A DNA stretch of 64,000 nucleotides from Caenorhabditis elegans (Eukaryota; Nematoda; Chromadorea; Rhabditida; Rhabditidae). Position numbers and translations under genes: made by a program. The stretch lies in contig NC_003282.8 of assembly GCF_000002985.6 (NCBI RefSeq), positions 1-64,000 of the forward strand. The letters are read 5' to 3'. Below, piece by piece: positions 1-47,900 of the stretch (positions within the stretch are counted from its first letter, which is position 1; each line of letters starts with the position of its first letter). Under the pieces are notes generated by a model. The model saw only the letters and a program-made list of their open reading frames with translations. It was not told where the DNA came from and did not search any database.

Positions 1-150
1 CCTAAGCCTAAGCCTAAGCCTAAGCCTAAGCCTAAGCCTAAGCCTAAGCCTAAGCCTAAGCCTAAGCCTAAGCCTAAGCCTAAGCCTAAGCCTAAGCCTA
101 AGCCTAAGCCTAAGCCTAAGCCTAAGCCTAAGCCTAAGCCTAAGCCTAAG
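1..150. repeat. Telomere: 25 tandem CCTAAG (TTAGGC) repeats
   Basis: The sequence opens with 25 perfect copies of CCTAAG, the C-rich strand of the nematode telomere repeat TTAGGC. Orientation is correct for a left chromosome end, since the G-rich strand runs 3' outward. The array meets the left arm of the inverted duplication with a two-base overlap (AG at 149-150 fits both). The true array is probably longer; assemblies usually clip telomeres. Confidence 0.97.
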
Positions 151-160
151 AAGAGACCAA

Positions 161-252
161 ACCGAAAAATCAATTTTTTAAACGAAAAATCAATGTTTTA
201 AACGAAAAATCTATTTTTTAAACGAAAAATCAATTTTTTAAACGAAAAATCC
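161..252. repeat. About 20-bp AT-rich tandem array next to the telomere
   Basis: Four to five degenerate copies of a 20-base unit (aacgaaaaatcaatttttta) lie a few bases inside the telomere junction. The same array is present in the right arm, so it existed before the telomere was added and is ordinary intron sequence of the scaffold gene. Bases 253-643 hold only AT-rich intron sequence. Confidence 0.85.
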
Positions 253-3100
253 ATAAAAAATTGTTATAAAAATTCTGGAAAAAAAACTAAAAACTTAATT
301 TTTGCTTTGAACATTCATCTTTCGCGAAAAAAATTTCAGCAAATAAAACCGAAAAATACAATTTTGCAAATAAAAAATCTAAATCAACAGTAAAAAACAA
401 AAAAGTCAAATTTCAATAGAAAAAAAAATCAAAAATCAATTTTTACTCCAAAAATTCAACTTTTGCCAAAAACTAACCCAGAAAAATCAATTCACAAAAA
501 AAAACAAATAAAACTGCAACGATGTTTGTGAAAAAAATTTTCTTGATATTTTTAACGAATTTTTGTTTAAAAAAAATGCATTTTTGGCCATAAAATTTTT
601 TTTTTGATTTTTTCAAACGAATTTCCCCTCAATTTTCTTGCAGATCGACGTGGATATTGACGACCTAGATGACGATTTTCTCTCCACAAACGGAATGGAA
701 CGACACGGTTCAGAATTACAAGGAGAAGTGGTTTTCACTACGACGAGTACTGCGAATAACAATGTGAAACGAGCCGTCGAATATTTCGAAGATGATAATC
801 AAGATGATGCACTAACATCCACTTCATCCGGCAACAGTACACAGAAGGAATCGTCTCCGTTCACAGATTTTGATGATGTTCCGCCGCCACCAGTGGCTCC
901 AGAAACTCCGGCTCCAGCCCAAAACCGCCGAGAATCTGCGTCCCCCGAACGTCAATTCCTTGATGAGAGTCACCTCGGCGGAATTGGATCTCCGTTATCA
1001 CAGAGTACAAGGCTCGATGAGACGTTTATTGAGGAATACTCTATTGAGTTGGACACCTCTGGGAAGTATGTGTTGGGAAAAAAAATCCGAAAATTGATTG
1101 AAAAATTCGAAAAAAAATCCAAAAAACCTTTTTTTAATGAGATTTTTTCTGTGCAAAAATTTAAATTTAGAGCTGAAGAATGTGCACTTCTAGAAAAACT
1201 TATTTTAAAAAATTCACATCCTTTTATCAAATTTATTAGCATATTTATACAAATTGATGGATAAAAATTCCAAAAAAGTTCCAGAAACAACATTTCCTCC
1301 GCAGCTTCACCTGGTCCCAAGTCTCCATTTGACGATGATTTTACTGATACAGCTGCCCCGGTAGCCCCGCCACCAGCACCTACAAAAGCTGCCGAGGAAT
1401 ATCGCCGGCAACCACATCAGAATCCGTTTGATGAGGAAGAGGAAGAAGAATCACAGTTTGGAGGGGGAACTCTGTCCGGTAGAGACCCATTTGATGAAGA
1501 TGTACGTTTTTCGTAAAGTTCGGAATTTTTAGGGTATAAATTGAAAAACAAATGGAGAAAATATGAATACCTAGATTTTTTTTTTCAAAAAATCCCAACC
1601 CTAATATCCACAATTTTTTTTCAGTCTGGAAACTCTAACGAAAACCAGCTCCGCGAGAAGAAGCTCCACAAAAAAGAGCAACTAGCTCACCGGCTCTCCT
1701 CCTCTTCCGAAGAAATTGTGGAAGCCTCAATTCACGAGGATGAGCCAATTGTGATGGCTCAAATTCCAGAGGAGAAGCCCAAACCGAAGGCTATCCCGGC
1801 TTTTGATAACGCCTATGACGCCGACTTTGACAATTCCCCACCACTTCATCATTACTCGGCGGTTCATTTGGAAACTGGGCTCTCACCGCTTGAGGAGGCT
1901 CAGAGAGCTCTCCGAGCCAACCGAGCAAGGCATAAGCCGTCGAATGTATCGTTGGCAGAGGAGGCGAAGCTTGCTGCCAGACAGAGATACTCGAATGCAT
2001 CGGATATTAGAAGAGAAGAGGAGGAAGAAGTGGTGGAAGAAGATCCAGCAGTGGTAGTTCCAGTTCTACGGAAGGATCTGGAAGTTGAGGAGGCTCCGAA
2101 ATCGGTACGACCGCCTAGATATCGGAAGTCAAGGGAAATTGAGGAACCGGTGGTTGTTGATCGGTTTGTTGAGGAAGAAGTTGATGAGAAGGAGGATATT
2201 GATGCGATTTTTGAGAAATATCGAAAGGTTCGTAAAGATATTTTCGAGAAAAACGGCGTTGAAAATTTGAAAAATTTGAACTTTTTTCGAGTTAAAAAAT
2301 TTAAACATATAGAAAAGATATGAATCTGACAAAATTTAGAGAAAATAAAATGTTATTCACCAAATCGCCAATTTTTCTGCATTTTTTTGTCCGTTTTACT
2401 TTGGTAATTCTGGTAATACAAAACTAGTTTTTTTTCAAAAAAGAATTGCAGGAAAAATATTTTAAATGTTTTTTGAGCACTTGAGCGCATGAGATAGAAA
2501 AACGTTATTATTATGCATTCCCTCATATAAAAGTTTGTTCAATTTTTTTAATTAAACCCCGCTCTTTGAGAAAACTCTGGACTCTACATGGAGACTACCT
2601 TAATACAAATTAACTCATAAATATCGGTGATTTTCAACTAGTTATTCATATGATGCAATTACTGATTTAATAACTTATAATTATGTGTCAATTTCAGACG
2701 TCTGTATCCGCCGATCCAAAATCTCACACGCCGATTTTGATGGCCGACGAGTACAAAGAACCACAGAAGCAAGGTGAGTTTAGTTCGAAAAAAAATCATA
2801 ACACACACCAGTAGGTTTAAAAACATTGTTAGAAAATTTGAAAAAAAAACCAAAAACCGTCGTAAAACTACACTTTTTCTATTGAAAATAGAACAAACAA
2901 ATCAAATATCCTACATGTAAAATTTAAATCGAGTGGAATTAAATTCTTCAAACAAAAAGAAATCTGCATTTAATATCGATTTCTCATTCAATTGTTATGA
3001 ATCATAAAACATGATTTTTTACGACCTCCTCTGAATTATCTACATTGTTCTCTTTTTCATACTTTCCATATTCTAGTATCGATAGGACTAACACAATTTT

Positions 3101-3354
3101 AATAGTGAGTTCGTTTTTCAAACAATTGGGATTAATTTTCAACTGAACTAGACTGTTTCTGAACGCTCAAAACCTTCAAAATCAATGCTTCTTCAAAACG
3201 AAAAAATTGCACACTATAAACCTCTCACTTGAAGTGGCAGCGCTCGTTTTATATTGAGAAAATATATATTCAAAAAAATGCTGCTGCTTCTTCAGCTTCT
3301 CGCCGGGCGCCGCCGCCAATAGTGAGTTCGTTTTTCAAACAATTGGGATTAATT
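3101..3354. repeat. 180-bp duplicated block flanked by 37-bp direct repeats, left
   Basis: Bases 3138-3317 repeat 4022-4201 at the same 180-base length. The copy is flanked by two 37-base direct repeats (3101-3137 and 3318-3354, beginning aatagtgagttcg). The pattern is a copied insert with duplication of its landing site, inside an intron of the scaffold gene. The rest of the 2.1-kb intron holds only AT-rich sequence, the TTGCCGG repeat and a GC-richer stretch at about 4200-4560. Confidence 0.9.
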
Positions 3355-3479
3355 ACAAAAAAACTTAACTGCGCAATTTTTAATTGGGAAACTTTCAAAT
3401 TTTAACCATAACTATCAATACAGCGGTATACGAAATTTTTCTTCAAAATCGCACCGATACTGCATTTTTCCGGAAAAGG

Positions 3480-3950
3480 ACAAAGTCGGCTAATTGCCGT
3501 TTTTTATAATTTTTGCTCATTAAGCTTATTCCATTAAAAATACAATTCTTGTTTAAAATTGCTGAACGGCGAATTTTGTCTACCCGTGGTGGAAATTGCC
3601 GGTTTGTTGATTTGCCGGAAAATTTCATTTTCGGCGTGCCGATTTGCCGTTTGCCGGATATCAATTTGCCTGAAACGTTTAGAGGAATACAACGGAAACA
3701 TTTGAAACTGTGCCTTTTTGAAATTTTTTCCCTTTTTTTTACAATATTTTCATAGAATTAGCTTACTTTTCAAAATAGATGTAGGAAAATTCATATGCGT
3801 ACAATTTTGCCAATTAAAATTTGAATTCTGAAATTTACAAAAAAATGTGCAAAACTACTATTCGCCGAAAATTTTTGGCAAGTTGCCGATTTGCCCGAAA
3901 TTTTTATTTTCGGCAAATTGGCGCTTTGCAGTTTGCCGGAAAAAATTACA
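3480..3950. repeat. TTGCCGG/CCGGCAA-type dispersed repeat, left copy 1
   Basis: An imperfect array of words such as gccgatttgccggaaa and ccggtttgcc, broken in the middle by a conserved stretch containing ggaaacatttgaaactgtgc. The same organisation recurs at 11594-12050 and 55366-55745, which marks it as one dispersed family. It lies in an intron and is not coding. Confidence 0.8.
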
Positions 3951-4021
3951 TACACCTGTTTTCAGCCTAACTTAAAATATGATTTACTTTGAAAAATAGG
4001 GAATTAAATTTAAATAAAATT

Positions 4022-4201
4022 TTCAACTGAACTAGACTGTTTCTGAACGCTCAAAACCTTCAAAATCAATGCTTCTTCAAAACGAAAAAATTGCACACTA
4101 TAAACCTCTCACTTGAAGTGGCAGCGCTCGTTTTATATTGAGAAAATATATATTCAAAAAAATGCTGCTGCTTCTTCAGCTTCTCGCCGGGCGCCGCCGC
4201 C
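4022..4201. repeat. Source copy of the 180-bp block, left
   Basis: Second copy of the block at 3138-3317, without the 37-base flanks. It ends in a GC-rich stretch (gccgggcgccgccgcc) and leads into a less AT-rich, pyrimidine-rich region (about 4300-4560). That region could be an internal promoter for the FERM-PDZ half, though this is only a suggestion from composition. Confidence 0.85.
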
Positions 4202-5249
4202 ACATTTACCGGCCAACCCGTTCTCTGAGGTTGTCTTGTAAGGGCGTTTTCATGTATATTCAGATTATTATGCATGAATTTCATTAATAACGGTATCCAC
4301 CCACGTATATTTCTCTTCTTCTCTCTTTCTGTTGCGACGGGGGATGTCGATTGATTACGCCACGGGCGCTAGCCTATTCCGAATGCATTGAGAAATTTGA
4401 GACCAGATTCTGGAGTTTTTGGAAGACGAATCGTCGGCAGCGGAGCTCGATTTTAATTTAATTTCGAGAGCACCCGCGTGCTCTCGCCTCGACACCCTCA
4501 AACTTCTTCTTCTTCTTCTTTTCGTCGTCTTTCACTTTTTTCCTTTTTCCTGTCCTAACCACGGCGTCTTCCTCCAATTTTCAGTTACCACGACGTCATT
4601 AGCTATTTTTAGTCCGAGTGTGGAGCTTGAGAATTTGAGCAATTCTGATGTGACATTCCTGTCGTTTTTAGCGCTAATTTTCCTAAAACCTTCAAAAATT
4701 TAGAAATTCTCTATCGTCTTTCAAGAGCCTAAGTTTTTTTTTTCGAAATGAGTTTTTTAAAATTGATCGAAATGTTTTTAAATACTGAATATTTGGGATT
4801 CTAGATTTTTACTACAATATTTCCTTTTCAATTTTTAATTGGACAAAATTTCAAAATGTTAAAAAAATTCTCCGAATTGAATGCTATTTTTCTAAAAAAT
4901 TTTTTTAGTGCCTGCACCAGTTGTCGTTGCTCAGGAGTCGCCGATCTTAAAACGAAGAAACTCTCTAGTACCATCAAGGATCAGTGGAAGGCAGTCGACG
5001 CGGCGAAGTGTCACCAGTGTTCGGAGTATGAGAGGAAAACGGAAGGTGAGTAAAAAATCCCCATTAATCACCGAATTCTCGTAAAAATTGAGAAAAAAAC
5101 CAATTTTTTGATGAAAAAGTCAGCTAATAAGTTCCCATTTTTCAGACCCGTGCGATTCCCGAGTTCTTCGACCTAACCCGACATCAGAACATTCGGCTCC
5201 GTGCTCCAGCTACGAAAAAGGTAAAATCTCGAGTAATTTCTTTCTTGTT

Positions 5250-5440
5250 GGCATGAACAGGTCTGCTTGCCTGCTTGCCTGTGTCTATTCACTAGCCTAT
5301 GCGCCTTCCTGCTTGCCTACGTAAACGCCTACGTGCCTGCCTACTTTTCTATGTGATTGCCTGCTACCTACGAGCCTGTCGATGCCTAGGGCCTGACTAC
5401 TTGCCTACATGCCTGCCTACAGAGCTTCAACCTATTAGCC
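5250..5440. repeat. Degenerate tgcctgcc/tacc repeat in intron, left
   Basis: A run of about 190 bases made of variants of gcctgcctac and tgcctacg. It is non-coding and lies between two FERM-region exons. Its mirror is at 42439-42629. Confidence 0.75.
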
Positions 5441-7479
5441 TTTAAATCAACATTATTCCAGAAACGCATAAGCCTACACCGCGTCGAGGACACCGAAGCC
5501 GTCGTCGAGCTCCTGAACGGCCAAAAAGTTGAAGTGGCATGCCGAAGTGACGTCATCTCGCGTGACGTGTTCTCTCTTATCGTCCAGAACATGAATATCA
5601 ATGAGCACGTGTTCTTCGGGCTCTCGTTCCTTCGTGATGGCGAGCACTACTTTATAGAGGATCATCAACGGCTCGAAAAGTTTGCACCGTCCGGATGGAA
5701 AAGTGTGGCACGCGTGGGCGTTAAGGTGCCATACGTGTTGCACTTACGATTCAAATTTTATCCGCAGATTTTGGATTTCATCAAGTACGGGAAAGAGTTA
5801 TTGTAAAGAAAATGAAGAAAAATTAGCAAAAAATAGAGGAAAAATCAATATTTTTTTGAATTTTCCAGCGATAAAATTGAAATTAGCGCAAAATTTTTTA
5901 AAAATTCGAAAATATTTTTTAATTATCTGGAAAATTTCGGCACCAAAATTTCAATTTTTCTTTTTTTTTAAGGGTTTAAAAATGTGGAAAATTCAAGATT
6001 TTATTTTTTCTAAAAAAATATTTGTGAGCATTTTTTTGGTGAAACTTGGGAAAAAAATTTGATATCAAAATTTAAGTGTTCCACTTTTTTAAAAACTCAT
6101 TTCGAATTTGTTGAACATACATAAAGTTTGAATTATTTCACTAAAATCACTTGAAACAAAAATGTTTTTTCGAGATTTTGGATTAAAAAATTCCGAATAA
6201 AAATCAACTTTAATTTAACGAAATTAATTTTCTATACCTAATTCTCTAATTTTTGCAGAACAGACGTAACGATGAACGAGTTGTATCTACAATGTAGACG
6301 AGACGTACTCGAAGAGAGAATCCAACCCAAAAGAGACGCAGCATTCGAACTCGCCGCGCTCGCCCTCCAAGCCGAATTTGGAAATCGACCGCCACCGGTG
6401 ATCACCGATTATTTCGATATTCAACACTACCTGCCCAAGAAGTATAGCTCATTTGAAGATCAGTCACGGCTGAAGAACATTCTCGCCGAGCTGCACGGGC
6501 ATTACGCGGGCACCCGGATTTCTGAGGCCAAGCACAAATACATTCAAATCTGTCAGCGACACCCAGATTTTGGAGCGCATGTGCATCGTGTGTTCCGAAC
6601 GAAGCCAACATCAGCTCACGGAGCATCTCCGTTCGATCCTGATACTGGGTCATCGCTTTGGATTGGAATTATGCCACGTGGAATATCGATTTATGAGCAG
6701 CAGGTAGACAGAAATTGATTAGATATAGAAAACAGAAAGAATAAGAAATTTGATATTGGAATTTTGTAGAACTTTTTGAAAAGTTGTTGAGCAATATACG
6801 CAAAATTTTAAAAAATTGAAAACTTAATTTTTATTTAATTTTCACATTCTTCTGAACTTTGAACCAGATCCAGATTTTTCGGGGTTTCTTTAATTCGTTA
6901 ATTCAAATGTGAACAGGCAGGCTTGTAGGCAGGCTAGTAGGCACGAAAACATGCCTGCCTACCTTGGTATCGGTTAGACCCCCAACTTTACAGAATCATC
7001 ACATCCCAAATAAGTATATGAGTATTGCGAGACAGGTAAAAACTCATCCCTTTTGTTGCCGAGATGAACAGGAAATGAACCTTATGTTTGTGAATGTTAA
7101 TATGAGAAAAATTGCCGTATCCTCTTTATTTGAAGTGCATGTAAATTTAAAAGAAGATACTTTTCGCTTTTTCGAGTGACCTTTTTTCAGAGAAAATATG
7201 TGTTTTTCTTGAATTTTTACCTAAATTACTTGCTTTTTTAAGTCTTAATTTACCTAATCCCAACTTCAAATAAAAACAAAATTTGAAAAAAAAAATTGAA
7301 AAATCTTCCAGGGAGGAGCCCGTGAGGTGATTGCCGAGCATGTTTGGCCGCAGACGCAGACCCTGCAATTCGATAAGAAGCGATTTGTGATTGTTGCCGT
7401 TGGAGCTCACGATGAGCAAATTGAGAGCACATTTTATACGGATCATCACTCGAAGTGAGCATTTTTCGACACCCACAGT

Positions 7480-7690
7480 AATTCTATAGTATCCCTACAT
7501 TAATCTTACAGTACCTATACAGTACTACCAAAGTACTTCTACAGTACTCCTGTATTAATCCTACAGTAATCCTAGAGTGCCCCTACAGTACCCCAATAGT
7601 ATTTCTACTGTACTCATTTACTCCTACACCTAGAGTACCCTAATGTATCCTTAAATTACCTCTACAGTAATCCTACAGTACCCTACATCG
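7480..7690. repeat. Degenerate acagtacc repeat in intron, left
   Basis: About 210 bases of variants of ctacagtacc/ctacagtaat fill most of the intron between exons 7312-7454 and 7705-7856 of the scaffold gene. Confidence 0.8.
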
Positions 7691-8764
7691 TATATATATT
7701 CCAGATCCTCCTATTTCGTGCGATTCGCCGCCTCCCAACATCGTTGGATGATGAAGATGCGTCAGTGGAAGAGCACGCTCCGGCACGAGAATACGATTCA
7801 GGCGATGCCAGACGTGATTGTTGAAGGGCAGACTATCCCGCCGGCGCCTATACGGCGTAAGTTTTTATTTTAGACAATTTAAGCTTTTGAACGTGTTTTG
7901 GATTTATACAATTGTTACTCCTGTTGTAATAATATCGTGTTCGTATACAGAAGGTCTCGAAGAATCACCTCCATCAACTCCACTGCTCGCCTCTGCCGAT
8001 CAGATCTTTGCGAAAATGTCAGTGAGCCAGGAAAAACCGGCGGCCAACCGACCCGCCGAACTGCCACCACCGGCACCGTCGTCGAAATTCGCGGCTCAAT
8101 ATGATACGGTTGATGAAGGAATTGTTTGTGGTTGGTTTTTTTTTGTTGTAAAATTTGAGTACATATTGTGGGGTAATAGTGGTAATTTTGAAAGTTCGTA
8201 AAAAGTTTTCTTGAAATTCAAAAAAAGTTCTAGTTTGTTTTAATTAATAAAATACGTACACTAATTCAAAATATATGTTTTATCGATTTTAAAACCTCAA
8301 AAAAATTGTAAAAAAATTGAAAATTAACTGAAAATCCCTACCCATTTCCAGATTCCCAAGCTGAAAACTTTGAGCGCGTCGACTCGACTGACAACGGGAA
8401 CGTGACGCCACGTGGCATGCAATTTGACATTTTGCTCGTGAAAGACCCCGCCAACGGTCTGGGTCTTACCCTAGTCGACGGGAATCTCAACGGAGTTCCA
8501 GGAGTGTATGTGAAGCTTGTCGCCGACAATGGAGCCGGAATGAAAGCGGTAAGAATTCGAAATTTCAGTCAATATCCCTTTTCCTCGGGGTGTACACTAG
8601 AGTTGTGTAAATCTACACATAACGTTTTTTCGATTATCTCTGAAAAATCGTAAAAAAAATTTCGACGACACAAAAGTTTTGAAAAAGTGAGCAAAATGTG
8701 TTGTCGAATTGCGTTTTAGTCGTAAATTGGTGTTTCCTAATAGTAAGCGAAAAAAAATCTAATG

Positions 8765-11070
8765 TCAAGGTTTATCTAATCGATAAAAAATATAATCCAT
8801 TAACCGCATCTCATACGGCGAAACGTGATGAAAACTAATCATTTTATCACTAAAATTCTCGTCCTCCTTCATCGCCGGATAATAGGCCAGTCGGCGGTTA
8901 AATGTATCCTTATAGATGGTTAGCTGCTCTAATGGATGAAAATGTTGAATTCGTTCGGAACCCATTTCGTCACGAATATCCTCCGGATAGATTTCCATGT
9001 GGGCCAGGCATTTTGCTAGCTGAAATTTTGGGATTTTTACTTACAACTGGTTTAGAATAATTTAGAAATTACAAAATCGAGGTTTTCTTTTGCTGGAAAA
9101 GTCGAACACTGGTATATTTAATTATGTTTCGAATTTTTCGGAAATAATCAAAAAGTTTTGGTTGTGCGGTCGACCTGTCGAATTTGCAAAAAATATTTGA
9201 GTACCATTTTTTGGTTTTTCGTCAAAAAATCTAATTTTAAAATTAAACAATTTTTAAAAAAATGCTCAAAGTAGGAAAGTTAAACATTTTCAATTTTAAG
9301 TGAATTCCCATTAAAACACACCTCCTGATCTTCCTCTGCTCGATGATGATCCGGACACCTGTCCGGATCCAGCATCACCTCGTTGAAAGCCTCCATTGTA
9401 GGCCTTGATAAGATATATGATGACCCGTCGTTGAAACCACGTGGCTGGAAATTAATTCTATCAGTTAGTCAAAATTTACTGACAATCACTCAGACGCTCA
9501 ATATTGCGATTTTGCTTCAAAACTACTGTACCCGGTCTTGACATTTTTTTTGGGAAACATGAAAAAAATGAGCATGATTTTTTTTCTATTTTCGATAGAC
9601 CTGAATATATTTCCGAAAAATTCAACCCATCCATCGCTCACTTACTGTGAAAAAGTTCCACTGCAGCCCGAGATAGTGATGTTTTGTGGGCGAATAGTTG
9701 TCGAGAAGCGTTCGCATGTTATGCATGAGTGCGTACGTGTCGTCGTCGGCTCGATAATACCAGTCATACTTTTTGGTGATCTTATCACGTACGTATCTGG
9801 AAATTTCCATTAATGCAGATATTTTTTAAATAAGTCCCTATTGCTCAGTTTTGGTTTTATAAACGGTAAAGGTGGGAGTAGTGACAAAAGAAGTACGAAA
9901 ACCATTAAAGGAGGTCGTAGAGGAGATTCACATTTAGATATCGCTTAATTGTTTGGATAGGGCTAAGTGCAGAACACAAACTTCATGTTTCTTGAAGTTG
10001 TAGTAAAGGTATGGAATTTCTAGACTCAGTTAGACTAAAAATTACCCAAAAATACCGAAATTAATTGTAGCTTTTAGGGAAATTCAACCCTCTTTATAGA
10101 ATTTTTCTCAGAAGTATCACTTTAAAAAACATGAAAACTCACTTAAAAACCCTCCTAATCTTCTCCCACGAGTGATCTCTTGAGTTCAATAACGGATAAT
10201 AAATATGTGGGATCGAATCGTTCATTTTCGAATCCGTAAAGAACAAGAAGTCATCGCAGTGTTGAACCCACGTTTCGAGTATTGTTTTTGCCTGAAATTG
10301 TATTTAATGAAACAAAAATCACGAATTCTTCTATACTTTTAAAGCAATTCGTACCAAAAATTGCTAATATTCTGGAAATTGACAACACAATTAGCTCATT
10401 TTTTGTAGTGCCATTTACGTGTATAACGTGTGTATAATTGTGCAAAAGTGTATAAATACGAGAAATAAAAATGAGCAAAAAGAGTTGTCAATTTAATTTT
10501 TGATCTATGCAATAAAAGACTTTAAACGAAATGAAAATTAAATTGACACACATTTTTGCTCAATTTAATAATAAGCAACGAGTGTTGTCAATTTAAGAAG
10601 TATCTTTAAATTCAAAAATTTACATAATTTTTTAGTTTCTAGTGCCCTACGTTATTTCTCCTTCCGATAGAAATAACACTAAATCGACAAAACATTTTGC
10701 TCAGAAGAAAAAGAGCAAATCGTGTTGTCGATTAACTTTTTTCAAAAATCTGATTGTTTTGTTGTTTTAATGGTTTCACGGATTTCGATCAACAATAGAG
10801 AAACAACACAAAAACCGGTAATCATTATGGAAGTTCGTTGTGTCAAATTTGCACGATTAGTGAAAACGCTGATCTTCGATGCTTAAAGACTTCATCGGAA
10901 CAAAATAACAAAGCGTCGAGAACGAACATCTAGAACATCTCCAAAAAAAATCAATAACCTACCCGTGTTTCGTGACTCGGTGTTGCAGTGTGAATAAGGC
11001 ATAATATAGTTTGTGGGGCACCTAATATTAATGAGATCTGTGATAGAAAGACGAGGAGGAGACTGATCAT
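8765..11070 (-). CDS. C1GALT1-like beta-1,3-galactosyltransferase (GT31), left copy
   Basis: Mirror copy of the gene at 36809-39114, with no difference seen in its exons. Five exons run leftward from the ATG at 11070 to the stop at 8765. It lies wholly inside the intron 8549-11267 of the truncated scaffold gene, on the opposite strand. All parts needed for expression appear present, including about 200 bases of upstream intron sequence, so this is a second potentially functional copy rather than a remnant. Confidence 0.85.
10370..10740. repeat. Cluster of GAGCAAA..GTTGTCAATTT motifs, left
   Basis: At least six imperfect copies of a 25-base word (gagcaaaaa + n + gtgttgtcaattt, or its reverse complement) occur in the first intron of the nested glycosyltransferase. 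A further copy at about 8690 lies just past its stop. Orientation alternates. No function known. Confidence 0.6.
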
Positions 11071-11593
11071 TTTTTGGAAAAAATAGATTTAGTTAATTAA
11101 TTAATTAATTTAAAAATAAGTATAAAAGTCGTCGTCTCTTCTGCCTCTTTTCGATTTTAAAAGAAAGAGAGAAGGGGCAGATTCTTCCCCTCCTCTCAGT
11201 GTCCTTCATTGAAGGGAGCGCATCGATCGTTATCTCTCTCCAGCAACATACGCCGAACATTTTGCAGGGAGTTTGCGTCGGCGACCGGATTGTCCAGGTG
11301 GGAACGGAATCCATGGAAGGACACGACCGGCTGCATGCGGTCGAGCTTGTCAGGCGGTGTGGACAACGGGTTCCGATGGTCATTGCGCGACTCGACGGGC
11401 TGATTCGACATCAGAAGGATGGTGAGTACAAAAGAGAAAGAAACATTGGAAAGTGAAACGAACAAAAAAAGTGTATTAGAAATATTATCTGATTTGGAGG
11501 TGGAACTGTTTCTAGTCATGGGGAACATTATAGGATTCTATAGGAATCCATTTCATCATAGAATTATAGGACGAATGATATTTTGAAAAGGTA

Positions 11594-12050
11594 AATCGAC
11601 AAATTGCCGGTTTGCAGATTTGCCGGAAAAGTTCAATTCCGGCAATTTGCCGGTTTGCCGATTTACAGGAAGTTTGCAATTCCGGCAATTTGCCGGTTTG
11701 CCGATTTACAGGAAGTTTTCAATTCCGGCAACCTGCCGGTTTTCCGATTTGCCGAAAATTTTCATTTTCGGCGAATTGCAGGCTTGCCGATTTGCCGGAA
11801 ATGTTTCGAGGAATTTTTTTAATAAGACGGAAACACTTAAAACTGTGCCTTTTTTGAAAATTTTTGCCGTTTTCTTTAGATATTCTCATTGGATTTGCAT
11901 GCTTTTCAGAATAGATGTAGGAACATTCATAGGATGCAAAAATTTTGTCATTTGAAAATGAAATTCTGAAATTTCCAAAAAACTGTGCAAAACCACAATT
12001 TGCCGAAGATTTTCGGCAATTGCCGTTTTTCCGGAAAATTCACAGTACAC
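11594..12050. repeat. TTGCCGG-type dispersed repeat, left copy 2
   Basis: Several alternating gccggtttgccgatttgc words, then the same middle segment (ggaaacacttaaaactgtgc) and a closing tttgccgaagattttcggc. It lies in the intron between scaffold exons 11268-11421 and 12469-12797. Open frames across it come only from the repeat structure. Confidence 0.8.
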
Positions 12051-12253
12051 ACTTTCGAAAAAAACTATGAATTGATTAGTCAAAACCTTACAACTTGTGA
12101 CTCAGAATTTTGAAAGTCTACCGAAAAAATAACGTTCTTCAACAATTACGATTCTTCAATTCTAATAGGTTTTTTTTCCGAAACTTTGAGTTTTGCTACC
12201 TCTAAAATATGTGATTACAAATTATGGAAACGTATTAACAAATTACAACAGTA

Positions 12254-12424
12254 CACTTGGTGTCAGAGTGTCTTATTTCGGCTACAAAAAATGCGGGTAA
12301 AGAAACGCAGAGTTCTCAATTAATTTCGCATGGTTAAGAACGTGATGACGTCGCATTTTTTGAGAAAAAAATTCCCGCATTTTTTGTAGATCAAACCGAA
12401 ATGGGACATCCTGACACCATGTGA
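12254..12424. mobile_element. TIR element (CACGTGGTGTCA family), left-arm copy
   Basis: A 170-base fold-back element with ends acacttggtgtcag / ctgacaccatgtg and inner inverted words ctacaaaaaatgcggg / cccgcattttttgtag. It has no coding capacity, so it is a non-autonomous, MITE-like element. Five copies lie in the window. Confidence 0.75.
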
Positions 12425-12954
12425 CAGTACTCAAATTTTTGCATCACAAAATCAAATTTTCCCTTCAGTATCCGCAGAAATGCTAGCCTCTGCCGGCCGT
12501 AAAAAGTCATTCACCTCATCATCCGGCGATCTTCTCAATGCTCCAAACCGCACTAATGGACAATCCCGAACACCACCTGCTCCACGAAAAGCCGCCAATC
12601 GTCGACAACGGGCGGTCAGTGATTTCGGAGCAATCGGAGATGCTCTGCCGACTCTTGACGGCGATAATCTCATCAATATCAAGGCGATCTCGGGGCTTCA
12701 TTTGGATGAATCTGATGAGGAAAAGGGTGAATATCGGCTGCCGACGACGTCGATGTACGCTTTTGATAGGGATGATGATTTGCAGGCGTCTATTAAGGTA
12801 TGTATGATGATTTTTAAGGAAAAAAAAGATTAAAAAAACAGTTTAGAAAACTTAACTTTGTATTTGTGGCATCTAAACAGGGCCACGGGAGCTTTTCTAC
12901 CAACCGAAAACCCTACCAACCAGAATTTGGAACCCGGTGTGGGCAGCAAACAAT

Positions 12955-13060
12955 GTTTACCGGCAAGTCGGCAAATTGCCGGATTTTAAATTATCCGGCA
13001 AATCGGCAAACCAGAAATTTGCCATTTGCTAAATTTGCCGACAAAAAATTTGCCGCCCAC
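12955..13060. repeat. TTGCCGG-type dispersed repeat, short left copy
   Basis: A short fragment of the same word family, in the next intron of the scaffold gene. Position 12986 (T) differs from its mirror (A in the same sense). Confidence 0.7.
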
Positions 13061-14084: not shown

Positions 14085-14350
14085 TTGCCAAAAGTTGGGG
14101 TTCGGCAACTTCGGCAATTGCCGGTTGCCGAAAATTTTGGAGTTCGGCAACTTAGGCAACTGCCGATATCAATGTCAAACATTTTGTAACCCATAAAAAA
14201 ACATTCAGAGAGGCTTAAAAATGCTAATATTTCGCCGTACACGAGAAAACGACCATTATTTTTTGCCAAAACGCTCAAAAATATAATTTTAACATAAACA
14301 ACTTTAAAACTTGGCTGCCGGTTGCCGAAAATCCCGGTTGCCGCACAGCC
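14085..14350. repeat. TTGCCG-variant fold-back repeat, left
   Basis: Words such as ggcaacttcggcaattgccggttgccg at both ends of an AT-rich centre form an inverted pair closed by agggctgtgcgg / gcacagccctg. It behaves as a fold-back element in the last intron of the scaffold gene. Confidence 0.7.
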
Positions 14351-14354
14351 CTGT

Positions 14355-35900: not shown

Positions 35901-38900
35901 TTGGAAATTTCAGAATTTCATTTTCAAATGACAAAATTTTTGCATCCTATGAATGTTCCTACATCTATTCTGAAAAGCATGCAAATCCAATGAGAATATC
36001 TAAAGAAAACGGCAAAAATTTTCAAAAAAGGCACAGTTTTAAGTGTTTCCGTCTTATTAAAAAAATTCCTCGAAACATTTCCGGCAAATCGGCAAGCCTG
36101 CAATTCGCCGAAAATGAAAATTTTCGGCAAATCGGAAAACCGGCAGGTTGCCGGAATTGAAAACTTCCTGTAAATCGGCAAACCGGCAAATTGCCGGAAT
36201 TGCAAACTTCCTGTAAATCGGCAAACCGGCAAATTGCCGGAATTGAACTTTTCCGGCAAATCTGCAAACCGGCAATTTGTCGATTTACCTTTTCAAAATA
36301 TCATTCGTCCTATAATTCTATGATGAAATGGATTCCTATAGAATCCTATAATGTTCCCCATGACTAGAAACAGTTCCACCTCCAAATCAGATAATATTTC
36401 TAATACACTTTTTTTGTTCGTTTCACTTTCCAATGTTTCTTTCTCTTTTGTACTCACCATCCTTCTGATGTCGAATCAGCCCGTCGAGTCGCGCAATGAC
36501 CATCGGAACCCGTTGTCCACACCGCCTGACAAGCTCGACCGCATGCAGCCGGTCGTGTCCTTCCATGGATTCCGTTCCCACCTGGACAATCCGGTCGCCG
36601 ACGCAAACTCCCTGCAAAATGTTCGGCGTATGTTGCTGGAGAGAGATAACGATCGATGCGCTCCCTTCAATGAAGGACACTGAGAGGAGGGGAAGAATCT
36701 GCCCCTTCTCTCTTTCTTTTAAAATCGAAAAGAGGCAGAAGAGACGACGACTTTTATACTTATTTTTAAATTAATTAATTAATTAACTAAATCTATTTTT
36801 TCCAAAAAATGATCAGTCTCCTCCTCGTCTTTCTATCACAGATCTCATTAATATTAGGTGCCCCACAAACTATATTATGCCTTATTCACACTGCAACACC
36901 GAGTCACGAAACACGGGTAGGTTATTGATTTTTTTTGGAGATGTTCTAGATGTTCGTTCTCGACGCTTTGTTATTTTGTTCCGATGAAGTCTTTAAGCAT
37001 CGAAGATCAGCGTTTTCACTAATCGTGCAAATTTGACACAACGAACTTCCATAATGATTACCGGTTTTTGTGTTGTTTCTCTATTGTTGATCGAAATCCG
37101 TGAAACCATTAAAACAACAAAACAATCAGATTTTTGAAAAAAGTTAATCGACAACACGATTTGCTCTTTTTCTTCTGAGCAAAATGTTTTGTCGATTTAG
37201 TGTTATTTCTATCGGAAGGAGAAATAACGTAGGGCACTAGAAACTAAAAAATTATGTAAATTTTTGAATTTAAAGATACTTCTTAAATTGACAACACTCG
37301 TTGCTTATTATTAAATTGAGCAAAAATGTGTGTCAATTTAATTTTCATTTCGTTTAAAGTCTTTTATTGCATAGATCAAAAATTAAATTGACAACTCTTT
37401 TTGCTCATTTTTATTTCTCGTATTTATACACTTTTGCACAATTATACACACGTTATACACGTAAATGGCACTACAAAAAATGAGCTAATTGTGTTGTCAA
37501 TTTCCAGAATATTAGCAATTTTTGGTACGAATTGCTTTAAAAGTATAGAAGAATTCGTGATTTTTGTTTCATTAAATACAATTTCAGGCAAAAACAATAC
37601 TCGAAACGTGGGTTCAACACTGCGATGACTTCTTGTTCTTTACGGATTCGAAAATGAACGATTCGATCCCACATATTTATTATCCGTTATTGAACTCAAG
37701 AGATCACTCGTGGGAGAAGATTAGGAGGGTTTTTAAGTGAGTTTTCATGTTTTTTAAAGTGATACTTCTGAGAAAAATTCTATAAAGAGGGTTGAATTTC
37801 CCTAAAAGCTACAATTAATTTCGGTATTTTTGGGTAATTTTTAGTCTAACTGAGTCTAGAAATTCCATACCTTTACTACAACTTCAAGAAACATGAAGTT
37901 TGTGTTCTGCACTTAGCCCTATCCAAACAATTAAGCGATATCTAAATGTGAATCTCCTCTACGACCTCCTTTAATGGTTTTCGTACTTCTTTTGTCACTA
38001 CTCCCACCTTTACCGTTTATAAAACCAAAACTGAGCAATAGGGACTTATTTAAAAAATATCTGCATTAATGGAAATTTCCAGATACGTACGTGATAAGAT
38101 CACCAAAAAGTATGACTGGTATTATCGAGCCGACGACGACACGTACGCACTCATGCATAACATGCGAACGCTTCTCGACAACTATTCGCCCACAAAACAT
38201 CACTATCTCGGGCTGCAGTGGAACTTTTTCACAGTAAGTGAGCGATGGATGGGTTGAATTTTTCGGAAATATATTCAGGTCTATCGAAAATAGAAAAAAA
38301 ATCATGCTCATTTTTTTCATGTTTCCCAAAAAAAATGTCAAGACCGGGTACAGTAGTTTTGAAGCAAAATCGCAATATTGAGCGTCTGAGTGATTGTCAG
38401 TAAATTTTGACTAACTGATAGAATTAATTTCCAGCCACGTGGTTTCAACGACGGGTCATCATATATCTTATCAAGGCCTACAATGGAGGCTTTCAACGAG
38501 GTGATGCTGGATCCGGACAGGTGTCCGGATCATCATCGAGCAGAGGAAGATCAGGAGGTGTGTTTTAATGGGAATTCACTTAAAATTGAAAATGTTTAAC
38601 TTTCCTACTTTGAGCATTTTTTTAAAAATTGTTTAATTTTAAAATTAGATTTTTTGACGAAAAACCAAAAAATGGTACTCAAATATTTTTTGCAAATTCG
38701 ACAGGTCGACCGCACAACCAAAACTTTTTGATTATTTCCGAAAAATTCGAAACATAATTAAATATACCAGTGTTCGACTTTTCCAGCAAAAGAAAACCTC
38801 GATTTTGTAATTTCTAAATTATTCTAAACCAGTTGTAAGTAAAAATCCCAAAATTTCAGCTAGCAAAATGCCTGGCCCACATGGAAATCTATCCGGAGGA

Positions 38901-41900
38901 TATTCGTGACGAAATGGGTTCCGAACGAATTCAACATTTTCATCCATTAGAGCAGCTAACCATCTATAAGGATACATTTAACCGCCGACTGGCCTATTAT
39001 CCGGCGATGAAGGAGGACGAGAATTTTAGTGATAAAATGATTAGTTTTCATCACGTTTCGCCGTATGAGATGCGGTTAATGGATTATATTTTTTATCGAT
39101 TAGATAAACCTTGACATTAGATTTTTTTTCGCTTCCTATTAGGAAACACCAATTTACGACTAAAACGCAATTCGACAACACATTTTGCTCACTTTTTCAA
39201 AACTTTTGTGTCGTCGAAATTTTTTTTACGATTTTTCAGAGATAATCGAAAAAACGTTATGTGTAGATTTACACAACTCTAGTGTACACCCCGAGGAAAA
39301 GGGATATTGACTGAAATTTCGAATTCTTACCGCTTTCATTCCGGCTCCATTGTCGGCGACAAGCTTCACATACACTCCTGGAACTCCGTTGAGATTCCCG
39401 TCGACTAGGGTAAGACCCAGACCGTTGGCGGGGTCTTTCACGAGCAAAATGTCAAATTGCATGCCACGTGGCGTCACGTTCCCGTTGTCAGTCGAGTCGA
39501 CGCGCTCAAAGTTTTCAGCTTGGGAATCTGGAAATGGGTAGGGATTTTCAGTTAATTTTCAATTTTTTTACAATTTTTTTGAGGTTTTAAAATCGATAAA
39601 ACATATATTTTGAATTAGTGTACGTATTTTATTAATTAAAACAAACTAGAACTTTTTTTGAATTTCAAGAAAACTTTTTACGAACTTTCAAAATTACCAC
39701 TATTACCCCACAATATGTACTCAAATTTTACAACAAAAAAAAACCAACCACAAACAATTCCTTCATCAACCGTATCATATTGAGCCGCGAATTTCGACGA
39801 CGGTGCCGGTGGTGGCAGTTCGGCGGGTCGGTTGGCCGCCGGTTTTTCCTGGCTCACTGACATTTTCGCAAAGATCTGATCGGCAGAGGCGAGCAGTGGA
39901 GTTGATGGAGGTGATTCTTCGAGACCTTCTGTATACGAACACGATATTATTACAACAGGAGTAACAATTGTATAAATCCAAAACACGTTCAAAAGCTTAA
40001 ATTGTCTAAAATAAAAACTTACGCCGTATAGGCGCCGGCGGGATAGTCTGCCCTTCAACAATCACGTCTGGCATCGCCTGAATCGTATTCTCGTGCCGGA
40101 GCGTGCTCTTCCACTGACGCATCTTCATCATCCAACGATGTTGGGAGGCGGCGAATCGCACGAAATAGGAGGATCTGGAATATATATACGATGTAGGGTA
40201 CTGTAGGATTACTGTAGAGGTAATTTAAGGATACATTAGGGTACTCTAGGTGTAGGAGTAAATGAGTACAGTAGAAATACTATTGGGGTACTGTAGGGGC
40301 ACTCTAGGATTACTGTAGGATTAATACAGGAGTACTGTAGAAGTACTTTGGTAGTACTGTATAGGTACTGTAAGATTAATGTAGGGATACTATAGAATTA
40401 CTGTGGGTGTCGAAAAATGCTCACTTCGAGTGATGATCCGTATAAAATGTGCTCTCAATTTGCTCATCGTGAGCTCCAACGGCAACAATCACAAATCGCT
40501 TCTTATCGAATTGCAGGGTCTGCGTCTGCGGCCAAACATGCTCGGCAATCACCTCACGGGCTCCTCCCTGGAAGATTTTTCAATTTTTTTTTTCAAATTT
40601 TGTTTTTATTTGAAGTTGGGATTAGGTAAATTAAGACTTAAAAAAGCAAGTAATTTAGGTAAAAATTCAAGAAAAACACATATTTTCTCTGAAAAAAGGT
40701 CACTCGAAAAAGCGAAAAGTATCTTCTTTTAAATTTACATGCACTTCAAATAAAGAGGATACGGCAATTTTTCTCATATTAACATTCACAAACATAAGGT
40801 TCATTTCCTGTTCATCTCGGCAACAAAAGGGATGAGTTTTTACCTGTCTCGCAATACTCATATACTTATTTGGGATGTGATGATTCTGTAAAGTTGGGGG
40901 TCTAACCGATACCAAGGTAGGCAGGCATGTTTTCGTGCCTACTAGCCTGCCTACAAGCCTGCCTGTTCACATTTGAATTAACGAATTAAAGAAACCCCGA
41001 AAAATCTGGATCTGGTTCAAAGTTCAGAAGAATGTGAAAATTAAATAAAAATTAAGTTTTCAATTTTTTAAAATTTTGCGTATATTGCTCAACAACTTTT
41101 CAAAAAGTTCTACAAAATTCCAATATCAAATTTCTTATTCTTTCTGTTTTCTATATCTAATCAATTTCTGTCTACCTGCTGCTCATAAATCGATATTCCA
41201 CGTGGCATAATTCCAATCCAAAGCGATGACCCAGTATCAGGATCGAACGGAGATGCTCCGTGAGCTGATGTTGGCTTCGTTCGGAACACACGATGCACAT
41301 GCGCTCCAAAATCTGGGTGTCGCTGACAGATTTGAATGTATTTGTGCTTGGCCTCAGAAATCCGGGTGCCCGCGTAATGCCCGTGCAGCTCGGCGAGAAT
41401 GTTCTTCAGCCGTGACTGATCTTCAAATGAGCTATACTTCTTGGGCAGGTAGTGTTGAATATCGAAATAATCGGTGATCACCGGTGGCGGTCGATTTCCA
41501 AATTCGGCTTGGAGGGCGAGCGCGGCGAGTTCGAATGCTGCGTCTCTTTTGGGTTGGATTCTCTCTTCGAGTACGTCTCGTCTACATTGTAGATACAACT
41601 CGTTCATCGTTACGTCTGTTCTGCAAAAATTAGAGAATTAGGTATAGAAAATTAATTTCGTTAAATTAAAGTTGATTTTTATTCGGAATTTTTTAATCCA
41701 AAATCTCGAAAAAACATTTTTGTTTCAAGTGATTTTAGTGAAATAATTCAAACTTTATGTATGTTCAACAAATTCGAAATGAGTTTTTAAAAAAGTGGAA
41801 CACTTAAATTTTGATATCAAATTTTTTTCCCAAGTTTCACCAAAAAAATGCTCACAAATATTTTTTTAGAAAAAATAAAATCTTGAATTTTCCACATTTT

Positions 41901-44900
41901 TAAACCCTTAAAAAAAAAGAAAAATTGAAATTTTGGTGCCGAAATTTTCCAGATAATTAAAAAATATTTTCGAATTTTTAAAAAATTTTGCGCTAATTTC
42001 AATTTTATCGCTGGAAAATTCAAAAAAATATTGATTTTTCCTCTATTTTTTGCTAATTTTTCTTCATTTTCTTTACAATAACTCTTTCCCGTACTTGATG
42101 AAATCCAAAATCTGCGGATAAAATTTGAATCGTAAGTGCAACACGTATGGCACCTTAACGCCCACGCGTGCCACACTTTTCCATCCGGACGGTGCAAACT
42201 TTTCGAGCCGTTGATGATCCTCTATAAAGTAGTGCTCGCCATCACGAAGGAACGAGAGCCCGAAGAACACGTGCTCATTGATATTCATGTTCTGGACGAT
42301 AAGAGAGAACACGTCACGCGAGATGACGTCACTTCGGCATGCCACTTCAACTTTTTGGCCGTTCAGGAGCTCGACGACGACTTCGGTGTCCTCGACGCGG
42401 TGTAGGCTTATGCGTTTCTGGAATAATGTTGATTTAAAGGCTAATAGGTTGAAGCTCTGTAGGCAGGCATGTAGGCAAGTAGTCAGGCCCTAGGCATCGA
42501 CAGGCTCGTAGGTAGCAGGCAATCACATAGAAAAGTAGGCAGGCACGTAGGCGTTTACGTAGGCAAGCAGGAAGGCGCATAGGCTAGTGAATAGACACAG
42601 GCAAGCAGGCAAGCAGACCTGTTCATGCCAACAAGAAAGAAATTACTCGAGATTTTACCTTTTTCGTAGCTGGAGCACGGAGCCGAATGTTCTGATGTCG
42701 GGTTAGGTCGAAGAACTCGGGAATCGCACGGGTCTGAAAAATGGGAACTTATTAGCTGACTTTTTCATCAAAAAATTGGTTTTTTTCTCAATTTTTACGA
42801 GAATTCGGTGATTAATGGGGATTTTTTACTCACCTTCCGTTTTCCTCTCATACTCCGAACACTGGTGACACTTCGCCGCGTCGACTGCCTTCCACTGATC
42901 CTTGATGGTACTAGAGAGTTTCTTCGTTTTAAGATCGGCGACTCCTGAGCAACGACAACTGGTGCAGGCACTAAAAAAATTTTTTAGAAAAATAGCATTC
43001 AATTCGGAGAATTTTTTTAACATTTTGAAATTTTGTCCAATTAAAAATTGAAAAGGAAATATTGTAGTAAAAATCTAGAATCCCAAATATTCAGTATTTA
43101 AAAACATTTCGATCAATTTTAAAAAACTCATTTCGAAAAAAAAAACTTAGGCTCTTGAAAGACGATAGAGAATTTCTAAATTTTTGAAGGTGTTAGGAAA
43201 ATTAGCGCTAAAAACGACAGGAATGTCACATCAGAATTGCTCAAATTCTCAAGCTCCACACTCGGACTAAAAATAGCTAATGACGTCGTGGTAACTGAAA
43301 ATTGGAGGAAGACGCCGTGGTTAGGACAGGAAAAAGGAAAAAAGTGAAAGACGACGAAAAGAAGAAGAAGAAGAAGTTTGAGGGTGTCGAGGCGAGAGCA
43401 CGCGGGTGCTCTCGAAATTAAATTAAAATCGAGCTCCGCTGCCGACGATTCGTCTTCCAAAAACTCCAGAATCTGGTCTCAAATTTCTCAATGCATTCGG
43501 AATAGGCTAGCGCCCGTGGCGTAATCAATCGACATCCCCCGTCGCAACAGAAAGAGAGAAGAAGAGAAATATACGTGGGTGGATACCGTTATTAATGAAA
43601 TTCATGCATAATAATCTGAATATACATGAAAACGCCCTTACAAGACAACCTCAGAGAACGGGTTGGCCGGTAAATGTGGCGGCGGCGCCCGGCGAGAAGC
43701 TGAAGAAGCAGCAGCATTTTTTTGAATATATATTTTCTCAATATAAAACGAGCGCTGCCACTTCAAGTGAGAGGTTTATAGTGTGCAATTTTTTCGTTTT
43801 GAAGAAGCATTGATTTTGAAGGTTTTGAGCGTTCAGAAACAGTCTAGTTCAGTTGAAAATTTTATTTAAATTTAATTCCCTATTTTTCAAAGTAAATCAT
43901 ATTTTAAGTTAGGCTGAAAACAGGTGTATGTAATTTTTTCCGGCAAACTGCAAAGCGCCAATTTGCCGAAAATAAAAATTTCGGGCAAATCGGCAACTTG
44001 CCAAAAATTTTCGGCGAATAGTAGTTTTGCACATTTTTTTGTAAATTTCAGAATTCAAATTTTAATTGGCAAAATTGTACGCATATGAATTTTCCTACAT
44101 CTATTTTGAAAAGTAAGCTAATTCTATGAAAATATTGTAAAAAAAAGGGAAAAAATTTCAAAAAGGCACAGTTTCAAATGTTTCCGTTGTATTCCTCTAA
44201 ACGTTTCAGGCAAATTGATATCCGGCAAACGGCAAATCGGCACGCCGAAAATGAAATTTTCCGGCAAATCAACAAACCGGCAATTTCCACCACGGGTAGA
44301 CAAAATTCGCCGTTCAGCAATTTTAAACAAGAATTGTATTTTTAATGGAATAAGCTTAATGAGCAAAAATTATAAAAAACGGCAATTAGCCGACTTTGTC
44401 CTTTTCCGGAAAAATGCAGTATCGGTGCGATTTTGAAGAAAAATTTCGTATACCGCTGTATTGATAGTTATGGTTAAAATTTGAAAGTTTCCCAATTAAA
44501 AATTGCGCAGTTAAGTTTTTTTGTAATTAATCCCAATTGTTTGAAAAACGAACTCACTATTGGCGGCGGCGCCCGGCGAGAAGCTGAAGAAGCAGCAGCA
44601 TTTTTTTGAATATATATTTTCTCAATATAAAACGAGCGCTGCCACTTCAAGTGAGAGGTTTATAGTGTGCAATTTTTTCGTTTTGAAGAAGCATTGATTT
44701 TGAAGGTTTTGAGCGTTCAGAAACAGTCTAGTTCAGTTGAAAATTAATCCCAATTGTTTGAAAAACGAACTCACTATTAAAATTGTGTTAGTCCTATCGA
44801 TACTAGAATATGGAAAGTATGAAAAAGAGAACAATGTAGATAATTCAGAGGAGGTCGTAAAAAATCATGTTTTATGATTCATAACAATTGAATGAGAAAT

Positions 44901-47900
44901 CGATATTAAATGCAGATTTCTTTTTGTTTGAAGAATTTAATTCCACTCGATTTAAATTTTACATGTAGGATATTTGATTTGTTTGTTCTATTTTCAATAG
45001 AAAAAGTGTAGTTTTACGACGGTTTTTGGTTTTTTTTTCAAATTTTCTAACAATGTTTTTAAACCTACTGGTGTGTGTTATGATTTTTTTTCGAACTAAA
45101 CTCACCTTGCTTCTGTGGTTCTTTGTACTCGTCGGCCATCAAAATCGGCGTGTGAGATTTTGGATCGGCGGATACAGACGTCTGAAATTGACACATAATT
45201 ATAAGTTATTAAATCAGTAATTGCATCATATGAATAACTAGTTGAAAATCACCGATATTTATGAGTTAATTTGTATTAAGGTAGTCTCCATGTAGAGTCC
45301 AGAGTTTTCTCAAAGAGCGGGGTTTAATTAAAAAAATTGAACAAACTTTTATATGAGGGAATGCATAATAATAACGTTTTTCTATCTCATGCGCTCAAGT
45401 GCTCAAAAAACATTTAAAATATTTTTCCTGCAATTCTTTTTTGAAAAAAAACTAGTTTTGTATTACCAGAATTACCAAAGTAAAACGGACAAAAAAATGC
45501 AGAAAAATTGGCGATTTGGTGAATAACATTTTATTTTCTCAAAATTTTGTCAGATTCATATCTTTTCTATATGTTTAAATTTTTTAACTCGAAAAAAGTT
45601 CAAATTTTTCAAATTTTCAACGCCGTTTTTCTCGAAAATATCTTTACGAACCTTTCGATATTTCTCAAAAATCGCATCAATATCCTCCTTCTCATCAACT
45701 TCTTCCTCAACAAACCGATCAACAACCACCGGTTCCTCAATTTCCCTTGACTTCCGATATCTAGGCGGTCGTACCGATTTCGGAGCCTCCTCAACTTCCA
45801 GATCCTTCCGTAGAACTGGAACTACCACTGCTGGATCTTCTTCCACCACTTCTTCCTCCTCTTCTCTTCTAATATCCGATGCATTCGAGTATCTCTGTCT
45901 GGCAGCAAGCTTCGCCTCCTCTGCCAACGATACATTCGACGGCTTATGCCTTGCTCGGTTGGCTCGGAGAGCTCTCTGAGCCTCCTCAAGCGGTGAGAGC
46001 CCAGTTTCCAAATGAACCGCCGAGTAATGATGAAGTGGTGGGGAATTGTCAAAGTCGGCGTCATAGGCGTTATCAAAAGCCGGGATAGCCTTCGGTTTGG
46101 GCTTCTCCTCTGGAATTTGAGCCATCACAATTGGCTCATCCTCGTGAATTGAGGCTTCCACAATTTCTTCGGAAGAGGAGGAGAGCCGGTGAGCTAGTTG
46201 CTCTTTTTTGTGGAGCTTCTTCTCGCGGAGCTGGTTTTCGTTAGAGTTTCCAGACTGAAAAAAAATTGTGGATATTAGGGTTGGGATTTTTTGAAAAAAA
46301 AAATCTAGGTATTCATATTTTCTCCATTTGTTTTTCAATTTATACCCTAAAAATTCCGAACTTTACGAAAAACGTACATCTTCATCAAATGGGTCTCTAC
46401 CGGACAGAGTTCCCCCTCCAAACTGTGATTCTTCTTCCTCTTCCTCATCAAACGGATTCTGATGTGGTTGCCGGCGATATTCCTCGGCAGCTTTTGTAGG
46501 TGCTGGTGGCGGGGCTACCGGGGCAGCTGTATCAGTAAAATCATCGTCAAATGGAGACTTGGGACCAGGTGAAGCTGCGGAGGAAATGTTGTTTCTGGAA
46601 CTTTTTTGGAATTTTTATCCATCAATTTGTATAAATATGCTAATAAATTTGATAAAAGGATGTGAATTTTTTAAAATAAGTTTTTCTAGAAGTGCACATT
46701 CTTCAGCTCGAAATTTAAATTTTTGCACAGAAAAAATCTCATTAAAAAAAGGTTTTTTGGATTTTTTTTCGAATTTTTCAATCAATTTTCGGATTTTTTT
46801 TCCCAACACATACTTCCCAGAGGTGTCCAACTCAATAGAGTATTCCTCAATAAACGTCTCATCGAGCCTTGTACTCTGTGATAACGGAGATCCAATTCCG
46901 CCGAGGTGACTCTCATCAAGGAATTGACGTTCGGGGGACGCAGATTCTCGGCGGTTTTGGGCTGGAGCCGGAGTTTCTGGAGCCACTGGTGGCGGCGGAA
47001 CATCATCAAAATCTGTGAACGGAGACGATTCCTTCTGTGTACTGTTGCCGGATGAAGTGGATGTTAGTGCATCATCTTGATTATCATCTTCGAAATATTC
47101 GACGGCTCGTTTCACATTGTTATTCGCAGTACTCGTCGTAGTGAAAACCACTTCTCCTTGTAATTCTGAACCGTGTCGTTCCATTCCGTTTGTGGAGAGA
47201 AAATCGTCATCTAGGTCGTCAATATCCACGTCGATCTGCAAGAAAATTGAGGGGAAATTCGTTTGAAAAAATCAAAAAAAAAATTTTATGGCCAAAAATG
47301 CATTTTTTTTAAACAAAAATTCGTTAAAAATATCAAGAAAATTTTTTTCACAAACATCGTTGCAGTTTTATTTGTTTTTTTTTGTGAATTGATTTTTCTG
47401 GGTTAGTTTTTGGCAAAAGTTGAATTTTTGGAGTAAAAATTGATTTTTGATTTTTTTTTCTATTGAAATTTGACTTTTTTGTTTTTTACTGTTGATTTAG
47501 ATTTTTTATTTGCAAAATTGTATTTTTCGGTTTTATTTGCTGAAATTTTTTTCGCGAAAGATGAATGTTCAAAGCAAAAATTAAGTTTTTAGTTTTTTTT
47601 CCAGAATTTTTATAACAATTTTTTATGGATTTTTCGTTTAAAAAATTGATTTTTCGTTTAAAAAATAGATTTTTCGTTTAAAACATTGATTTTTCGTTTA
47701 AAAAATTGATTTTTCGGTTTGGTCTCTTCTGCAAGAGTATTTATTTTCGGAAAATTTTTAAAAATTTTTTTTAAATAAAAAAACAGTTACCTGATTCGTG
47801 TCCTCATCACCCATTAATTCTTCATAAATGCACATAAGCATCGAAGCTGGATCTCTGCCACGTAGTTGGTTCCTGAAATGACTTTTTTTTTTGAAAAAAT

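Follow-up and report, generated by a model that had tools for sequence, protein, structure and literature searches.

The left end of chromosome IV of Caenorhabditis elegans is a terminal inverted duplication closed by a telomere. It was analysed here in a window of 64,000 bases (bases 1-64000 of the chromosome IV contig), which opens with a perfect (CCTAAG)n array of period 6, reading TTAGGC on the other strand. Where this array stops, an arm of 23.5 kb begins that is repeated in reverse complement further inward, on the far side of a single-copy spacer of 572 bases (Table 1). Self-BLAST aligns the two arms over 23,506 columns with differences at only eight places, namely seven substitutions and one 2-base indel in a run of T. 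At its outer edge the terminal arm passes into the telomere with a short match, since array and arm share the two bases AG, whereas the internal arm runs on into intact unique DNA that carries the first exons of an FRM-5-like gene, found only at 47782-48844. A preliminary description of this DNA had proposed just such mirrored arms around a 572-bp spacer, a telomere starting where the homology of the left arm stops and a right arm continuing into the remainder of a gene, and each of these features is present. When the genome was searched (100,286,401 bases in seven contigs), a 2.5-kb piece of the left arm was present in full at two places and otherwise had a single match, of 67 bases at 78%, which rules out chance or dispersed repeats as the source of the arms, and a search with bases 23500-24400 found no further match for the spacer.

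The gene at the arm edge, a scaffold gene of the FRM-5 family that lies in the right arm and the DNA beyond it, encodes a 1551-residue C. elegans product (P0001) with FERM and PDZ domains, and two of its relatives are named FRM-5 and Frm-5.1 by their sources. In a tblastn exon map, residues 164-1551 map to both arms, while residues 1-167 have a supported match only outside the arm. The left copy therefore retains 1388 of the 1551 codons and has lost the first 163 residues, in agreement with the earlier claim that one gene is truncated at its 5′ end. A CAG just outside 47730 had suggested that the telomere joint lies at an exon boundary; this was ruled out because the exon map places the joint within the intron between these two groups of exons. 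A kinase-like reading of the first exons, which comes solely from the name given by one source, was also set aside; in PDB searches these exons had one insignificant match (E 0.5), and the FERM_N piece had no match. The two FRM-5-like copies are presumably those named frm-5.1 and frm-5.2. Both frm-5.1 and the Y38C1AB genes are on record in the literature.

Inside an intron of the FRM-5-like gene sits a C1GALT1-like galactosyltransferase gene that is identical in both arms. The two copies fit Y38C1AB.1 and Y38C1AB.5, which are both listed as core 1 synthase and targeted by one RNA interference clone (PMC4850687). A third duplicated stretch has only distant ion-transport relatives in Caenorhabditis, the best at 33% (C. 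remanei); its pieces had no significant match in Pfam and PDB searches, and no near-identical C. elegans protein was shown within the protein lengths admitted by the search. Given these distant relatives and the lack of a near match, the stretch, a gene or pseudogene by its sequence, may be the latter. The earlier count of at least three duplicated genes is thus well supported for the FRM-5-like and C1GALT1-like genes, but less so for the third. Each arm also holds an identical 185-base direct repeat, with units about 0.9 kb apart (3134-3318 and 4018-4202, mirrored at 44561-44745 and 43677-43861), and outside the palindrome, at 61898-63698, there is an inverted repeat that is imperfect (86%) over about 0.8 kb.

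Table 1. Features of the left end of C. elegans chromosome IV, in window coordinates
Feature	Position	Strand	Evidence
Telomere array (CCTAAG)n	1..150	+	Perfect period-6 tract
Left (terminal) palindrome arm, derived copy	149..23654	-	Reverse complement of 24227-47730, 99.962%
5′-truncated FRM-5-like copy, residues 164-1551 of 1551	641..14923	+	tblastn exon map
Arm difference, Val to Ala in truncated copy	5499..5499	+	Arm alignment and exon map
C1GALT1-like gene, left copy	8765..10288	-	8754-10479 identical to right copy
Ion-transport-like gene or pseudogene, left copy, approximate limits	15502..20127	-	Mirror coordinates
18-mer GAAGAGGGAAGAAGTTTT, left-arm copy	23634..23651	+	Genome-wide exact search
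18-mer GAAGAGGGAAGAAGTTTT, second tandem copy, spanning arm/spacer joint	23652..23669	+	Genome-wide exact search
Spacer, 572 bases, no second copy found	23655..24226	.	Self-BLAST and genome search
Right (internal) palindrome arm, continuous with chromosome	24227..47730	+	Self-BLAST
18-mer GAAGAGGGAAGAAGTTTT, inverted copy at right-arm start	24230..24247	-	Genome-wide exact search
Ion-transport-like gene or pseudogene, right copy, approximate limits	27754..32377	+	Distant Caenorhabditis relatives
Full-length FRM-5-like FERM/PDZ gene, 1551-residue P0001	32956..48844	-	tblastn exon map; Pfam FERM_N, FERM_M and PDZ on its exons
C1GALT1-like galactosyltransferase pieces, right copy, in FRM-5-like intron	37591..39114	+	PDB 7q4i, E 2.6e-26; Pfam Fringe

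The centre of the palindrome carries a signature of its own. The 18-mer GAAGAGGGAAGAAGTTTT occurs at three exact places in the whole genome, and all three are here: two tandem copies across the joint of left arm and spacer, and one inverted copy at the start of the right arm. In a test on 30-base windows, where the word shared at the joint was scored as 15 bases, random pairs were drawn from 24300-63900; inverted pairs 572 bases apart shared a word of at least 15 bases in 11 of 20,000 draws, and adjacent pairs in 120 of 20,000, some of these words being longer. Either an inverted repeat seeded a fold-back at this point, or a polymerase copied 18 bases and then slipped. The extra GAAGAGGGAAGAAGTTTT beside its inverted source fits a templated insert, and a pre-existing inverted repeat is equally possible; both scenarios are known kinds of repair signature (PMC7467729, PMC4981268, PMC4490562).

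The few differences between the arms speak to direction and age. Exon mapping puts one of the eight, at base 5499, within an exon of the FRM-5-like gene, and the C1GALT1-like stretch has no difference at all (the exons of the third gene being unmapped). The truncated copy has Ala at this site, where Val stands in all 32 aligned homologues, the C. elegans protein itself included (33 were found, one of which did not align). Judged by these homologues the terminal arm is the derived one at this site, in line with the truncation of the same copy. With mutations arising at a rate of 2.7e-9 per site per generation, the seven substitutions found over 23,504 bases correspond to a very rough age of about 55,000 generations (22,000-114,000), which sequencing errors would lower and gene conversion between the arms would raise. 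During 4,000 laboratory generations only 0.5 differences would be expected at this rate, and seven or more would have a probability of 1e-6; the substitution count thus supports a palindrome that is natural and predates laboratory culture. The preliminary description had spoken of a natural, recently formed end, and while the first part stands, the second is refined to the range of generations given above.

The same differences bear on whether the palindrome is an artefact of cloning or assembly, in which one arm would be a rearranged clone or a false join. Palindromes are easily mis-assembled, the reference assembly was built from clones, and what we have analysed is assembled sequence. An artefact is nonetheless very unlikely, given that the arms differ at eight places, one of them a coding change where all 32 aligned homologues have Val, that a natural telomere stands exactly at the arm edge and that Y38C1AB.1 and Y38C1AB.5 are listed separately as galactosyltransferase genes (PMC4850687), even though these points fall short of single-molecule proof.

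The other chromosome ends of the same genome provide a wider context. In a scan begun as a control, all 12 ends were searched for an inverted copy of at least 100 bases and at least 95% identity that starts at the telomere edge, to a depth of 60 kb at I-left, I-right and II-left, 64 kb at IV-left, 22 kb at X-left, 7 kb at V-right and 3 kb at the other six, II-right among them. At five of the 12 such a copy exists within the same end: I-left (194 bases), III-right (139 bases), IV-left (23.5 kb), V-right (938 bases) and X-left (5,161 bases). A direct copy at the telomere edge was found at one end of the 12 (V-left). At the three ends scanned to 60 kb, 1.8%, 0% and 2.0% of interior bases lie in inverted repeats of this kind, and the probability of at least five ends in 12 is 2e-7 at the mean of 1.3% and 2e-4 at an assumed 5%. 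Telomere and arm share 2, 3, 2, 4 and 4 bases at the five edges, where the chance of two or more is 6% each. Genome-wide queries from IV-right, III-left, V-left and X-right, which began inward of the bases nearest the telomere and were scored for 40 candidates each, had, among the matches listed, none that was at once long, near-identical, inverted and close to the same end. A perfect 223-base inverted repeat at II-right (263-485 and 1814-2036 from the telomere) was left out of the tally because it starts 70 bases from the telomere.

Some of these ends resemble IV-left on a smaller scale. The X-left query matched a near-identical copy in inverted orientation 17 kb inward of it, and the arms there (259-5419 and 15224-20384) are 99.88% identical, with a 4-base telomere overlap and a spacer of 9,804 bases; five of their six differences fall within the innermost 170 bases (chance 2e-7). 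A query from V-right found an inverted copy of 820 bases at 98%; the arms at this end, at 182-1119 and 2537-3475 from the telomere, are 98.5% identical, with a 4-base telomere overlap and a spacer of 1,417 bases, and here 7 of 14 differences lie within the innermost 118 bases (chance 8e-4). Such clustering at the inner edge is what priming of the copy by an older, imperfect inverted repeat would be expected to leave. The inverted copies at III-right lie at 208-346 and 594-732 from the telomere (98.6%, spacer 247 bases); some 5 kb further in, and short of the telomere, the same end has a 2-kb direct repeat at 98%.

At I-left the inverted copies (431-624 and 57663-57855, 96.4%) have telomere-like repeats on their inner side, and by place and make-up, rather than by coordinates, they fit the published TALT2 duplication (PMC4595603), so that the scan recovered a known case unprompted. 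Since I-left of the same genome fits TALT2, IV-left might also be the product of TALT-like copying, by which an internal segment is copied beside the telomere via telomere-like internal repeats, as in telomerase-free survivors. Both ends have an internal segment of the same end duplicated beside the telomere, yet TALT2 carries telomere-like repeats and measures 0.2 kb in our comparison, whereas the arms at IV-left reach 23.5 kb. As TTAGGCTTAGG is absent from 151-64000, the flanking repeats of TALT are missing at IV-left, and this origin is extremely improbable there.

The end at IV-left was probably made by a break, fold-back copying and healing by telomere addition, as the preliminary description had proposed, because the geometry, the 2-base telomere overlap, the 18-base signature at the centre, the direction of the coding change and the recurrence at other ends all fit. 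From these features we infer the following order of events. The ancestral chromosome would have lost its end through a break near present base 23655. The exposed 3′ strand would then have folded back over some 570 bases to pair with inverted sequence near 24230, either through a pre-existing 18-base inverted repeat or through a few matching bases, to which copying added the 18-mer before slippage produced the tandem copy. Synthesis would have extended the end with a copy of at least 23.5 kb of the chromosome, until copying stopped, or the doubled arm broke, in the FRM-5-like intron, and telomerase would have capped the end on the 2-base match. X-left, V-right and III-right may share this origin.

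Fusion of sister chromatids followed by breakage (a breakage-fusion-bridge cycle) would yield the same product, including the single-copy spacer, and the sequence by itself does not separate it from an intramolecular fold-back. Here a broken end would have been replicated and one sister cut back about 570 bases more than the other; polymerase-theta end joining, leaving a templated insert, would then have linked the two, and the joined chromosome would have broken 23.5 kb from the joint before telomerase capped it. Joints made by polymerase theta in C. elegans do carry templated inserts, in 24% of Tc1-excision deletions (PMC4490562), which the extra 18-mer beside its inverted source resembles. 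The inner edges at X-left and V-right, however, look like older imperfect inverted repeats, a better fit to strand fold-back, and the spacers of 9.8 kb and 1.4 kb at these ends would require very unequal trimming of the sisters, so that we consider sister fusion a rather unlikely route. Several points also count against fold-back and healing. The evidence is a reference sequence rather than reads, a pedigree or an ancestral strain; the loop of about 570 bases far exceeds the yeast median of 36 for large-loop cases (PMC7467729, PMC4981268); the tally of ends was made after the first matches had appeared and at unequal depth; its excess weakens to a probability of 0.008 at the 11% background seen in 2.8 kb of II-right; and III-right has no clear seed, its two differences not being clustered.

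Fold-back with healing has well-described counterparts. Human inverted duplications with terminal deletion share with IV-left the inverted arms and the single-copy spacer, and with its probable origin the lost end and the healing by a telomere, but are mostly new and harmful, whereas the IV-left end has persisted in its lineage. Like IV-left as reconstructed here, the fold-back inversions and telomere-loss palindromes of budding yeast have inverted arms around a short inverted repeat and a lost distal end, with secondary healing that can be a new telomere; inverted repeats between the arms of telomere-loss palindromes, and loops of up to thousands of bases, are described in yeast (PMC7467729, PMC4981268). 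These yeast cases come from mutants under selection, while IV-left is natural, appears stable and has a loop of about 570 bases. In telomerase-mutant C. elegans, fusions contain terminal duplications in which subtelomeric DNA was synthesised onto an uncapped end (Lowden et al. 2011, via PMC9071541); the kind of copying is like that proposed for IV-left, but there it seals end-to-end fusions, whereas the copy at IV-left ends in a telomere. Programmed DNA elimination was considered from the literature and dropped, as nothing at IV-left points to it. Tandem repeats are described at both subtelomeres of chromosome IV, after Wicky et al. 1996 (PMC9071541). In the strain CB4856 the IV-left end is reported to differ: a fragment of IV-left measuring 11.6 kb borders chromosome I at both of its ends (PMC8961926), and close to a telomere of chromosome IV there is an inverted translocation of 38 kb (PMC12239620). 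Searches of the open-licence literature for earlier reports brought up no account of the IV-left palindrome or of the pattern across several ends, though either may have been noticed earlier.

The type of event is already known, and its interest here is that the product stands as a natural chromosome end and that several ends of this genome appear to be of this sort. At IV-left the reference genome of a holocentric animal that has been studied in depth includes a probable fold-back end whose sequence is complete. Such an end suggests that a type of rearrangement familiar chiefly from mutants and tumours can heal, last in a natural lineage and duplicate genes there. The smaller inverted scars at some other tips suggest that worm ends are at times rebuilt by folding back. 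More tentatively, and with the odds somewhat against it, fold-back and re-capping could be a main route by which C. elegans renews its chromosome ends, through serial rounds of break, fold-back and healing at holocentric ends. At least one third of the ends of a single wild-type genome (IV-left, X-left, V-right and III-right, together with I-left as TALT2) would then be inverted duplications under a telomere cap, differing in age and for the most part seeded by an inverted repeat, and subtelomeric genes would be born as duplicate or truncated copies. The recurrence at other ends opens a testable question, that of how subtelomeres form and turn over.

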